A stretch of DNA of 64,000 nt from a virus. Position numbers and translations under genes: made by a program. Positions 1,335 through 62,048 of the stretch are shown piece after piece (within the stretch, counting starts at the first letter, position 1; the number at the start of each line of letters is the position of its first letter). The notes under the pieces are model-generated. The model saw only the letters and a program-made list of their open reading frames with translations. It had not been told where the DNA came from and made no database searches. The DNA lies in the IMG/VR virus record IMGVR_UViG_3300046321_000098, positions 1 through 64,000 of that record. One strand, written 5' to 3'.

Positions 1335-2795
1335 ATGACAAGAAAACAAATAAAAAAAGCTCAATCATCATTAGATAAACCTGAACCGTTTCAACTAGGT
1401 GAGATGGGAATATCTGGTGCTCCAATCTTTGCAGGCATTCCAGCCAACGAGATTAAGCGAGAGCTGAATTTTCCTACTAACTTGACAACGTTTAAAAAGA
1501 TGATGTTGCATCCAGCAGTGAATGCAAGTATGTCATTGCATAAATCAATGTTAAGCAAGGCAACCTTCCGTGTCTTACCTTGCAAGAATCCTACAGCAAA
1601 AGAGAAGTTCCAAGCTAAGAAGATTGAAGAAATGCTTACTGACATGGATACACCTTTGGAGGATGTTGTTTCCTCCAGCTTGTCAGCATTGGAATATGGT
1701 TTCGCCCCACTTGAAAAAGTGTTTCGCTTACGGGAAAAAGCCTTTGGGTCTAAATACAGTGATGGATTGATTGGTGTCAAAAAGTTAGCCTTACGACACC
1801 AAGAGTCAATTGACACCTTCATCTTCGATGATGAAGGTAACGAAGTCCTCGGTTTGAAACAAAGCTTGACGAATGTAAATGACCCAATGGGGCGTTACAC
1901 TAAATGTGCCAAGGGTGACATTGTGTTACCCCGTGAGAAGTTCATGCTTTTTACCGTAGGTAACGACAAGAGTAATCCTTATGGAACTAGCCCTTTGAGG
2001 AATGTTTTTTTACCGTGGAAGTATTTGCAAGCGATTGAGGAACTTGAGGCAAGTGGCATTGCCAAGGATCTAGCTGGACTACCTTTTATTCGCATCCCTG
2101 CTCAAATGATGTCAGCCGATGCAAGTACAGAGCAGAAGCTTGCTTTTGAGCAATTCAAAGCAATCGGACGTAATCTACAAAACAACGCACAAGCTTGTGT
2201 AATCTTACCAAGTGATTGTGACCCTGATACACGTCAACCTTTGTTCAGTTTAGAGTTACTGGAAAACGTATCAAAGAAGAGTTTCAACACTACCGATGTG
2301 AAGTCCTACTACCGTGAGATGATTTTCATTGGGTTGAGTGCTGATTTGTTGCTGATGGGAAACACAACCACAGGTTCATTTGCATTGGGTGCAATTAAGC
2401 AATCCTTGACAGGTGCAACCGTCGAAGGCTACCTCAAAAACATTGTTCAAACATTCAACCTTGATTTGATTAAACACTTGTACGAGTTGAACAGCTGGGA
2501 TGTCAGCCGCATGTGCGAACTGGATTTTGAGGGGTTCGAAGATGTGGATTTAGACTCCTTTAGTAAGTCAATCCAACGAATTGGGTCTGTAGGTTATCTC
2601 CCACGTACACTAGATGTCGTCAACGACATTCTAAGAAAGCACGGATTAGACGCACTGCCAGAAGGTACTGAACTGGATGATATTTTACCAGAGAAAACAT
2701 CGAAAGCCTCAGAAGGCATGAAAACTGCTGCTGACGGTACAGCCAATGAAGTTACTGGTAAAGACTCTGCTAGTTTGAATACCGAGAATAGTTGA
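1335..2795 (+). CDS. Portal protein
   Basis: A 486-residue protein directly after the terminase, fitting the dodecameric portal ring at the DNA entry vertex. The sequence resembles the DUF935/Mu gp29-like portal group: an N-terminal AGIPANEIKRE segment, a central region with ALEYGF and KFMLFTVGND, and a long helical C-terminal part. The start is ATG after a weak purine-rich leader. The last ~35 residues are rich in Ser, Thr and Glu and look flexible. The -35 box of the next promoter overlaps the stop codon. Size and position make portal the best call; subfamily is uncertain. Confidence 0.85.
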   Translation: MTRKQIKKAQSSLDKPEPFQLGEMGISGAPIFAGIPANEIKRELNFPTNLTTFKKMMLHPAVNASMSLHKSMLSKATFRVLPCKNPTAKEKFQAKKIEEMLTDMDTPLEDVVSSSLSALEYGFAPLEKVFRLREKAFGSKYSDGLIGVKKLALRHQESIDTFIFDDEGNEVLGLKQSLTNVNDPMGRYTKCAKGDIVLPREKFMLFTVGNDKSNPYGTSPLRNVFLPWKYLQAIEELEASGIAKDLAGLPFIRIPAQMMSADASTEQKLAFEQFKAIGRNLQNNAQACVILPSDCDPDTRQPLFSLELLENVSKKSFNTTDVKSYYREMIFIGLSADLLLMGNTTTGSFALGAIKQSLTGATVEGYLKNIVQTFNLDLIKHLYELNSWDVSRMCELDFEGFEDVDLDSFSKSIQRIGSVGYLPRTLDVVNDILRKHGLDALPEGTELDDILPEKTSKASEGMKTAADGTANEVTGKDSASLNTENS

Positions 2796-2820
2796 TATTT
2801 GTAACATTTCGTGTTACAAT
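2792..2820 (+). promoter_or_regulatory. Sigma70-like promoter with internal dyad (late promoter type)
   Basis: TTGATA at 2792-2797, a 17-nt spacer and TACAAT at 2815-2820 preceded by TGT, an extended -10 layout. An inverted repeat, TTGTAACA and TGTTACAA with 5 nt between, spans 2799-2819, so its right arm coincides with the -10. The same layout recurs at 9192-9220 and 16498-16526. The -35 overlaps the portal stop codon. It would drive the RNA element, the HNH gene and the virion genes downstream. Confidence 0.7.
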
Positions 2821-2828
2821 TGTAGATT

Positions 2829-2896
2829 GACAACGGCTAGGGTCATTCCCGAAAAGAAGATTAGTTACCTTCCTGCCTGTTGTTTTATTAGTAACT
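2829..2896 (+). ncRNA. Structured leader RNA, copy 1 (three-way junction plus pseudoknot)
   Basis: Hand folding gives P1 (2830-2837 with 2875-2877 and 2879-2883, one bulged T at 2878), P2 (GGG 2840-2842 with CCC 2848-2850), P3 (GAAG 2856-2859 with CTTC 2869-2872), and a 6-bp pseudoknot between the P3 loop (AGTTAC, 2863-2868) and GTAACT at 2891-2896. P1 is followed by TTTTATT. The copy at 14288-14359 keeps the same fold with compensatory changes. It lies between a promoter and the HNH gene at 2917. Function unknown; not a class I recognise. Confidence 0.7.
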
Positions 2897-2916
2897 TCCA
2901 TTAACTAAGGAATACA

Positions 2917-3510
2917 ATGACAAAGATACTTAAGAAATATGAGTTAAATAGGGAGTATGTAGTTCAGATATTAGAGTATGAACCACAAACTGGTGAATTT
3001 TTCTGGCTAGTACCCAAGGCAATGAGAGTTAACATTGGAGACTTAGCGGGTAACTATCGTAAGCAAAGTGGATATGTAACAATTAGTATTGATAATGTAG
3101 ACTACAAAGCGCATCACTTAGTCTGGTTGTACCATTATGGAGTTTTCCCTGTACTAGAGATTGACCACATAGACGGTAATCGAGCGAATAATAGGGTGGA
3201 TAATCTAAGAGAGGTCACATCCTCTACCAACGCAATGAATCGTAAAATGAGGGAAGATTGTTCATCAGGGGTCACTGGGGTAAGCCTGAGAAGAGGAAAA
3301 GGGAGAAACGGGAATCCATATCACGCATGGGTGGCGTTCTGGTGTGATTCAGACGGTAAACAGCGGTTTAAGAATTTTGCTGTAATCAAATACGGGTTTG
3401 ATACCGCCAAGCAAATGGCAATATCCTACAGAGAAGCACGTATACGTGAACTAAACACAGCAGGCGCTGATTACACAGAAAGACATGGAAAGCAATGTTC
3501 ACAGCATTAA
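2917..3510 (+). CDS. Free-standing HNH homing endonuclease
   Basis: 197 residues. The N-terminal part reads LEYEPQTGEFFW, then the HNH core with HHLVW and IDHIDGNRANNR followed by NLREVT, typical of phage HNH_3-type enzymes; the C-terminal half looks like an AP2-like DNA-binding module. Such enzymes nick or cut cognate alleles lacking the gene. It sits between the portal gene and the next virion gene, and its end overlaps the next start (3495). The same enzyme type occurs at 17504, 33613, 43349 and 54596. It is preceded by a promoter and a structured RNA. Confidence 0.92.
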   Translation: MTKILKKYELNREYVVQILEYEPQTGEFFWLVPKAMRVNIGDLAGNYRKQSGYVTISIDNVDYKAHHLVWLYHYGVFPVLEIDHIDGNRANNRVDNLREVTSSTNAMNRKMREDCSSGVTGVSLRRGKGRNGNPYHAWVAFWCDSDGKQRFKNFAVIKYGFDTAKQMAISYREARIRELNTAGADYTERHGKQCSQH

Positions 3511-14287: not shown

Positions 14288-14359
14288 AAACAGGCTAGGG
14301 GTTGCTCCCGAAACAGAAGAGTCATTACCTTCTCTTGCCTTGTTTTCTTTTTAGTAATG
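14288..14359 (+). ncRNA. Structured leader RNA, copy 2 (three-way junction plus pseudoknot)
   Basis: Same fold as 2829-2896. P1 pairs 14288-14295 with 14337-14339 and 14341-14345, keeping one bulged T (14340). P2 pairs 14298-14300 with 14307-14309. P3 pairs 14316-14319 with 14329-14332, plus one A-T pair. The P3 loop CATTAC (14323-14328) pairs with GTAATG (14354-14359). Three P1 pairs and two pseudoknot pairs differ from copy 1 by compensatory change. A T-rich run (TTTTCTTTTT) follows P1. It precedes the GIY-YIG gene. Confidence 0.7.
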
Positions 14360-14376
14360 TTCTTTAATGGAGAAGT

Positions 14377-15147
14377 ATGCTTTTATTAACAAAAGACAAA
14401 TTGAACCAAATACTTAAGCAAAATCGTGGAAAATCTTACACTTATGGGCTGTGTCGTGGTTCAGGGGATTTATTCTATGTGGGTGTAGGGATACGCCAAA
14501 GAGTTCTTAATCATACCTATGAACATGAACTAAATCGTGGTGGGAATAAGCATAAAATAAGTATTATTAAAAGAAAATAAAACATACTTTAGACTGTTAT
14601 TTTTTAATTCTCTTTTAATAAGGATAGAGCAGTTTGTCTTGAGGTGGAAAAAGATTTAATAAGAAAGTTTGGACGTTCAGATATCCAAACAGGCTCACTG
14701 ACAAACTTGACAAATGGCGGTGAAATTGGCGCAAACGGTGTGGTTGTTTCTGCTGAAACTAGATTAAAACTCTCCGAAAAAGTACAGGAAAGAGTTGAAG
14801 TAATAAGAGAACAACAACGCGAACGCTGGAAAATTTTAACAGAGGATGAGAAACTGCAACGCATCCTTAACATGACGCGCGGCAGTGGTACTCCTGAGCA
14901 TCTTGCTAAGTTATCAAAGGCACAACTGAAAAAGTGGAGTAATCCAGAGTACAAAAAACGTCTCTCGAAGATACAAGTAACAGCCCAAGGTGCTCTTGCA
15001 GAAGACCATAGAAGAAGAACAACAGCTTACTGGGCAAACCCAGAAAACAAAGAAAAACGATTAGAACAGAATAGGTTACGAAGGGCTGCAAAGTTAAGTA
15101 ACCCTGTCTTGAGTCCGATAGAAGAACGGGTTGCTGTACCCACTTAA
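14377..15147 (+). pseudogene. GIY-YIG homing endonuclease broken by two frameshifts
   Basis: The N-terminal GIY-YIG half is in 14377-14580 (SYTYGLC, DLFYVGVG, RVLNHTYEHEL). The C-terminal half, in the same frame from about 14608 to 15147, has LEVEKDLIRKFGR, GSLTNLTNGGE and helical DNA-binding repeats (KKWSNPEYKKRLS). Between them the frame holds three stops, but frame 3 reads IKHTLDCYFLILF across 14577-14615, exactly the missing linker. Reading through needs -1 near AAAATAAAA (14574-14582) and +1 near CTCTTTT (14610-14616). It is a decayed gene, a sequencing artefact in A and T runs, or, least likely, recoded. An intact enzyme would be about 250 residues. Confidence 0.8.
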
Positions 15148-17407: not shown

Positions 17408-17503
17408 TAAGATTAACAGCGTCAGTCGTAGGCATACGCGCAAGTGAAGTTCTGCTCCAACAGAGACTCATCTGATGTTTGTTTTAAAATGTTTTGGAGG
17501 ACA

Positions 17504-18019
17504 ATGGTGGAAATTAATAAGAACAAAGCACTTTCACAAGACGAGTGGAAAGCATTGGTAGACTACAACCCAGACACAGGTGTCTTTGTTTGGAAAGTTA
17601 ATCGTTATCGCACACAAGCTGGTGACATTGCAGGTTACCGTAAACCTAACGGGTATATCTCTATTCGTACAAACAAGAAGCATCATCCATGTCACCGAAT
17701 AGCTTGGATAATTACGTATGGTGTTGATACTGATGGGTTCATAGACCACATTAACGGTGACAAAAGTGACAACAGAATTGTAAATTTACGTGTAGCTAAT
17801 AAGTCCGCGAATGGGTTTAATACTACAAAACGTGCTAACAATACATCAGGTTACAAAGGTGTCACTTGGCACAAACAAATTGGTAAGTGGGCAGCTCGTG
17901 CAAAAGTAAACTATGAGTGTTATCACTTAGGGTTATTTGATGACGTACTAGAAGCTGCTAAAGCATACGACGATTTTGCGAAAGCAAACCACGGCGAATT
18001 TTACAAAGATAATCTATAA
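17504..18019 (+). CDS. Free-standing HNH endonuclease (HNH plus AP2-like)
   Basis: 171 residues from ATG 17504, chosen because TTGGAGGAC precedes it; the frame is also open from 17444. HNH core: CHRIAWI then FIDHINGDKSDNR and NLRVANKS. AP2-like C-terminus: GYKGVTWHKQIGKW, AARAK, HLGLFDDVLEAAKAYD. It has inserted between chaperone and tape measure genes and carries its own terminator downstream. Paralogous to the HNH genes at 33613 and 43349. Confidence 0.93.
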   Translation: MVEINKNKALSQDEWKALVDYNPDTGVFVWKVNRYRTQAGDIAGYRKPNGYISIRTNKKHHPCHRIAWIITYGVDTDGFIDHINGDKSDNRIVNLRVANKSANGFNTTKRANNTSGYKGVTWHKQIGKWAARAKVNYECYHLGLFDDVLEAAKAYDDFAKANHGEFYKDNL

Positions 18020-61973: not shown

Positions 61974-62048
61974 ACGCCTATAGCTCAATGGACAGAGCCT
62001 CAACCTTCTAAGTTGATTATCCAAGTTCGATTCTTGGTAGGTGTACCA
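61974..62048 (+). tRNA. tRNA-Arg (anticodon TCT)
   Basis: Acceptor ACGCCTA/TAGGTGT (one G-T pair), D-stem GCTC/GAGC, anticodon stem TCAAC/GTTGA, loop CTTCTAA with anticodon TCT at 62007-62009, T-stem CCAAG/CTTGG, loop TTCGATT, CCA encoded. Reads AGA, useful to an AT-rich phage. A transcription terminator follows at 62113. Confidence 0.92.

Follow-up and report, generated by a model that had tools for sequence, protein, structure and literature searches.

Two int-alpA RNA leaders in a viral genome: likely switches in the translation of mobile-element genes, with dimerisation as a possible gate

The window analysed here is a stretch of 64,000 nt, positions 1-64,000 of the 82-kb viral record IMGVR_UViG_3300046321_000098. 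It holds two copies of an RNA element on the plus strand, each followed by an endonuclease gene (Table 1). The original prediction folded copy 1 into three helices, P1, P2 and P3, and a pseudoknot, and held that copy 2 keeps every helix. All the elements of copy 1 were found where they had been placed, and P1, P2, P3, the P3 loop (L3) and the pseudoknot of copy 2 could be located at 14288-14359. The pattern CTAGGGN{3,8}CCCGAAA has two sites in the window, which are the two copies, against none in 100 shuffles. Single-sequence minimum-energy folding of the plus strand found neither copy significantly stable (z of -0.82 and -0.13), so that the case for structure rests on comparison. The element is also longer than first described, as a Shine-Dalgarno hairpin (P4) follows 3' of positions 2896 and 14359; the loop of this hairpin repeats the sequence of the pseudoknot strand (PK1). 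Both points were lacking in the prediction.

Table 1. Coordinates of the two RNA copies and of the features around them in the window.
Feature	Position	Strand	Details
Copy 1, sigma-70-like promoter	2792-2820	+	TTGATA, 17 nt, TACAAT; TG before the second hexamer; 10/12 consensus matches
Copy 1, perfect 8-bp inverted repeat	2799-2819	.	TTGTAACA-TTTCG-TGTTACAA; across promoter spacer and -10
Copy 1, core	2830-2883	+	three-way junction
Copy 1, P1	2830-2837/2875-2883	+	bulged T2878
Copy 1, UA between P1 and P2	2838-2839	+	
Copy 1, P2 hairpin	2840-2850	+	stem 2840-2842/2848-2850, 3 bp; loop UCAUU
Copy 1, GAAAA between P2 and P3	2851-2855	+	
Copy 1, P3	2856-2859/2869-2872	+	loop L3 2860-2868
Copy 1, PK1	2891-2896	+	GUAACU; 6 bp with L3 AGTTAC 2863-2868
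Copy 1, P4 Shine-Dalgarno hairpin	2896-2912	+	UUCC-AUUAACUAA-GGAA
Copy 1 gene, HNH + AP2, homing-endonuclease-like	2917-3510	+	197 aa; HNH_3 1.6e-16, AP2 6.5e-9 (Pfam); phrog_99 3.3e-44
Copy 2, core	14288-14344	+	
Copy 2, P1	14289-14295/14337-14344	+	
Copy 2, P2	14298-14309	+	loop GUUGCU
Copy 2, P3	14315-14319/14329-14333	+	loop L3 14320-14328
Copy 2, PK1	14354-14359	+	GUAAUG; pairs with L3 CAUUAC
Copy 2, P4 Shine-Dalgarno hairpin	14360-14374	+	UUCU-UUAAUGG-AGAA
Copy 2 gene, Seg-like GIY-YIG-type endonuclease start	14377-14580	+	67 aa; interrupted
Copy 2 gene, remainder in another frame	14644-15147	+	phrog_314 homing endonuclease 9e-5

The consensus match upstream of copy 1 predicts a transcription start a few bases 5' of P1, and the inverted repeat across this promoter, of which the window has no second perfect copy, resembles a repressor operator. 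Upstream of copy 2, no sigma-70 promoter could be recognised. The last 16 nt of the HNH gene behind copy 1 (3495-3510) also belong to the start of its neighbour, which indicates that the insert continues into that gene instead of closing with a terminator. A BLAST search with copy 1 and its gene found no match among annotated phages. The start of the copy 2 gene resembles the N-terminus of an annotated Seg-like endonuclease of Rhizobium phage RHph_X2_25, which this RNA also precedes (41% over 27 aa, 2e-4). The split of the copy 2 gene over 14377-15147 reflects either a decayed gene or a sequencing error. The window has a single tRNA gene, a tRNA-Arg (TCT) at 61974-62048.

Both copies are almost certainly members of the Rfam family RF02996, int-alpA, and the earlier view of an unrecognised class was mistaken. 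At a relaxed threshold, Rfam gives RF02996 over the full length of both copies, with scores of 26.8 bits (copy 1) and 28.5 bits (copy 2) that lie below the curated cut-off of 35.8 bits; the alignments cover model positions 1-71 with P1, P2, P3 and the conserved CUAG, CGAAAAG and CUG. RF02996 was matched in all 15 genomes with GGCTAGGG-type relatives, and above the cut-off in 14 of them, which points to divergence of the window copies, not to a separate class, as the reason for their shortfall. A covariance model built from 90 relatives and leaving out the window copies found both again with 46.4 and 35.4 bits (E of ~1e-14 and ~1e-10, rough values that stem from a short calibration), and had no further match over the 82-kb record. 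In the reciprocal direction, the window-type model detects the canonical int-alpA loci L214 (1.4e-7), L237 (4.5e-9) and L213 (4.8e-11), which sit between an integrase gene and the one after it. The matches in the two directions thus make the window-type relatives and int-alpA one class.

The window copies share with this family the P1-UA-P2-GAAAA-P3-CU-P1' core and its length. They differ in being AT-rich and in having a GGG/CCC P2 with loops of 5-6 nt, in place of the GACG tetraloop that is common among canonical copies. They also serve endonucleases in structural modules: the place between int and alpA, which belongs to the name and is not a sequence criterion, is not theirs, as portal/tail genes flank them on one side and endonuclease genes on the other, nor is it general for the family as mapped here. 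The int-alpA RNA class was reportedly defined in an earlier published study. Rfam files this orphan family under the type 'Gene; sRNA', with no function given. Our literature search found no paper testing the function of int-alpA, and the only one found to name it merely records its presence in genomes (PMC12370729).

Homologues beyond the two copies, whose existence had been left as a check, are many, and occur in phages, prophages and bacterial genomes. At least 120 viral contigs carry the signature, and its tight pattern occurs at 90 places in GTDB genomes. The sample used for comparison comprises about 230 relatives, cleared of redundancy, from phages, from prophages and from roughly ten phyla of bacteria. 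Among the GTDB genomes, by our own grouping of their titles, are Alpha-, Beta- and Gammaproteobacteria, Desulfobacterota, Planctomycetota, Nitrospirota, Bacillota and Chloroflexota, as well as one cyanobacterium, one Streptomyces and several MAGs. A start codon with an open frame was found in 230 of the 234 relatives parsed, mostly 32-46 nt past the core, and -10-like hexamers lie 3-12 nt 5' of the core in 54 cases against 14 expected. We read the element from this sequence context as a cis leader of the following gene, not as a stand-alone RNA. Judging by the distance to the promoter, some relatives may begin transcription downstream of the outer part of P1.

The genes behind these leaders are varied. 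Among 83 downstream proteins scanned, 19 are DUF1376 and about 10 HNH, and the remainder includes integrases, Rha, KilA-N, DUF927, primase-like, tail and portal proteins. The proposed link to mobile endonucleases holds in the window and, in general, only in part. A third HNH and AP2 endonuclease of the window (17444-18019; phrog_99, 4.5e-67) is not preceded by int-alpA RNA, which shows that not all such genes of this phage come with it. In Enterobacter phage Tyrion, the RNA lies in a unit oriented opposite to the head genes, in Pseudomonas phage IME307 among tail genes, and in RHph_X2_25 directly 5' of the Seg-like homing endonuclease in the capsid module, the same situation as that of copy 2. 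In Escherichia coli, the canonical int-alpA is flanked by an integrase gene and by the next gene of the same strand.

The covariation first noticed between the two copies is borne out for P1 and P3 in the 90 relatives, where these helices have 297 compensated cells and a score of 0.397; the shuffles reach 112 and 0.120, and the signal collapses when the partner is slid by one column. Since the pattern used for the search fixes P2, this helix does not vary in the sample; canonical copies do vary it (GGTC/GGCC, GCCC/GGGC, TCTC/GAGA). The junction nucleotides (UA, GAAAA, CU) are near-invariant across phyla.

The comparison also points to a second partner for L3. In copy 1, UAACUAA (2902-2908) is complementary over 7 nt to UUAGUUA of L3 and continues into the AAGGA ribosome-binding site (2907-2911); in copy 2, UAAUG (14365-14369) is complementary to CAUUA of L3 and touches the GGAG ribosome-binding site (14369-14372). 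PK1, P4 and the repeat of the PK1 strand are present in both. Over 230 leaders, cleared of near-duplicates and uncorrected for shared ancestry, L3 pairs with PK1 over 5.62 bp on average, against 3.51 ± 0.07 when loops are swapped between leaders, and with a second site in the stretch from PK1 to the start codon over 4.85 bp, against 3.61 ± 0.06. This second pairing reaches at least 5 bp in 66% of the leaders and in 17% of the swaps. An independent set found with RF02996 (n=16) gives 5.25 against 3.52 for PK1 and 4.75 against 3.78 for the second site, each above all 500 swaps. In the 202 leaders where both pairings have at least 4 bp, they always share at least 2 nt of L3, and mostly 4-6. Since they use the same L3 bases, the two pairings are mutually exclusive. 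Their median duplex energies are close (-6.4 kcal/mol for PK1 and -4.65 kcal/mol for the second site).

The second site lies at the start of translation. Its 3' end is mostly 6-11 nt 5' of the start codon, i.e., at the Shine-Dalgarno position, and it is usually in the loop of P4. Using simple rules to assign P4 and the start codons, a P4 stem of at least 4 Watson-Crick pairs was found in 77% of the leaders against 30% with shuffled flanks, and about a quarter of the relatives lack a clear P4 by this criterion. The 3' arm of P4 mostly ends 0-5 nt before the start codon, and more than 100 different stems occur. Exclusive pairing over the ribosome-binding site, as in translational riboswitches, is thus what the comparison of leaders reveals.

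The loop of P2 is self-complementary across relatives. A 4-nt palindrome is present in 25 of 30 distinct 7-nt loops, against 7-10 expected, and nearly always in one register. Fifteen of the 16 possible tetramer palindromes occur in these loops, and the last, GGCC, is found in two int-alpA copies with the 6-nt loop CGGCCA. Loops of 8 nt have a 6-nt palindrome in 9 of 14 cases, where about 1 would be expected, and the register is always the same. Self-complementarity of the centre dinucleotide holds for all 30 distinct 7-nt loops, for 11 of the 14 of 8 nt and for all 14 of 5 nt; the other dinucleotide positions of 7- and 8-nt loops are near a quarter. Strongly self-complementary loops include AACTCGAG and AATCGCGA. 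Intramolecular extension of P2 was rejected as a source of the palindromes because it would not force the centre dinucleotide. There was no excess of pairing, relative to swapped loops, between the P2 loop and another site in the same leader.

Because the P2 loop is self-complementary while its sequence is otherwise free, we predict that two leaders form a kissing homodimer through it; self-complementarity is indeed kept while the loop sequence changes, as this kind of dimer demands. Known kissing-loop RNA dimers, as reviewed for the HIV-1 DIS, the GACG loops of MoMuLV/MoMuSV and the hatchet ribozyme (PMC7357161), also use self-complementary hairpin loops of 2, 4 or 6 nt, and the 7- and 8-nt loops likewise have two 5' nucleotides ahead of the palindrome. 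The GACG loop of canonical int-alpA is known to form a homodimer in murine retroviruses (PMC7357161). In contrast with these systems, the int-alpA loop belongs to a gene leader that also carries the likely Shine-Dalgarno switch, and its dimer is predicted from sequence. The most common P2 loops have 5 nt and a self-complementary centre of only 2 bp. Both window copies have short forms, with a weaker AU centre in copy 1 and a GC centre in copy 2, so that any dimer there would be weak.

We think it probable that the window RNAs are int-alpA 5' leaders acting in cis, in which L3 would switch over the ribosome-binding site, P2 would dimerise, and dimerisation or a junction factor would set the balance. 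Such leaders would likely switch the translation of mobile-element genes, with dimerisation as a possible gate. The three-way junction is the core, and L3 the shared partner of two strands. When L3 sits on PK1, the strand just past P1, the pseudoknot closes, which would leave only a weak hairpin of 4-6 bp over the ribosome-binding site, so that translation would be ON. When it pairs instead with the near-repeat of PK1 in the P4 loop, this loop-loop contact would lock P4 and hide the ribosome-binding site (OFF). The ON state is likely the default, as PK1 is transcribed first and its pairing is somewhat stronger. The P2 loops would join two leaders as a kissing homodimer, and we infer that the balance of L3 may be tipped by this dimerisation, by some ligand or protein acting on the invariant junction, or by both.

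Part of this anatomy would also suit a metabolite riboswitch, with the junction as an aptamer whose ligand stabilises PK1 and frees the ribosome-binding site, and with a palindromic P2 loop that only aids folding or packing. The near-invariant junction nucleotides and the classical translation expression platform speak for it, and translational riboswitches likewise combine a junction core with exclusive pairings by which the ribosome-binding site is exposed or hidden. Yet int-alpA has no known ligand and the genes it serves share no pathway or metabolic theme (DUF1376, HNH, integrase, tail, primase), and an aptamer would leave the self-complementary centre of every distinct 7-nt P2 loop unexplained, so that we regard this explanation as unlikely. 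We give still less credit to an exonuclease-resistant or 5'-stabilising RNA, in which the L3 pseudoknot would wrap the 5' end and protect the mRNA. The likeness to exonuclease-resistant RNAs suggested by the original prediction stands for the topology, since the loop of the third arm pairs beyond the closing stem as in flavivirus-type xrRNA (compared by topology alone), and the promoter-like hexamers just 5' would set P1 at the 5' end of the transcript. It does not stand for the function: the RNA sits over the ribosome-binding site, which points to control of translation, and protection would explain neither P4 nor the repeat of the PK1 strand, which in int-alpA duplicates the partner strand at the start codon.

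The Rfam type label would favour a trans-acting small RNA, a very improbable reading given the start codon and open frame at a preferred distance behind nearly all relatives, the complementarity of L3 to the ribosome-binding site of its own gene beyond swapped controls, and the stretch from core to gene, which has no terminator-like site in the two window copies. Least credible of all is a DNA element that serves in recombination or replication or as an operator, and whose inverted repeats would merely resemble RNA. Its occurrence in mobile elements and its inverted repeats would fit; the strand-fixed relation to the following gene, a covariation that tolerates G-U pairs and fifteen different palindromes in one loop register, which no sequence-specific DNA binder would accept, speak strongly against it.

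If the window RNAs are cis leaders with a dimerising P2 loop, they might even count their own copies: dimerisation would shift L3 between PK1 and the ribosome-binding site and make translation dosage-dependent with neither protein nor metabolite, a tentative idea that we hold to be rather doubtful. A dimerisation-gated leader, if true, would add an unusual mode of gene control and offer a simple means of making expression dosage-sensitive. An orphan family filed as sRNA gains here an anatomy that makes its function testable, that of a putative leader on phage and prophage genes in about ten phyla, with two competing pairings at the start site and a loop that seems to evolve under self-complementarity alone. 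The RNA may also serve as a marker of separately regulated phage genes, homing endonucleases included. Two leaders of a single MAG, L150 and L177, have different palindromic P2 loops (CATCGAA and AATGCAA), and paralogues such as these may be kept from cross-pairing.
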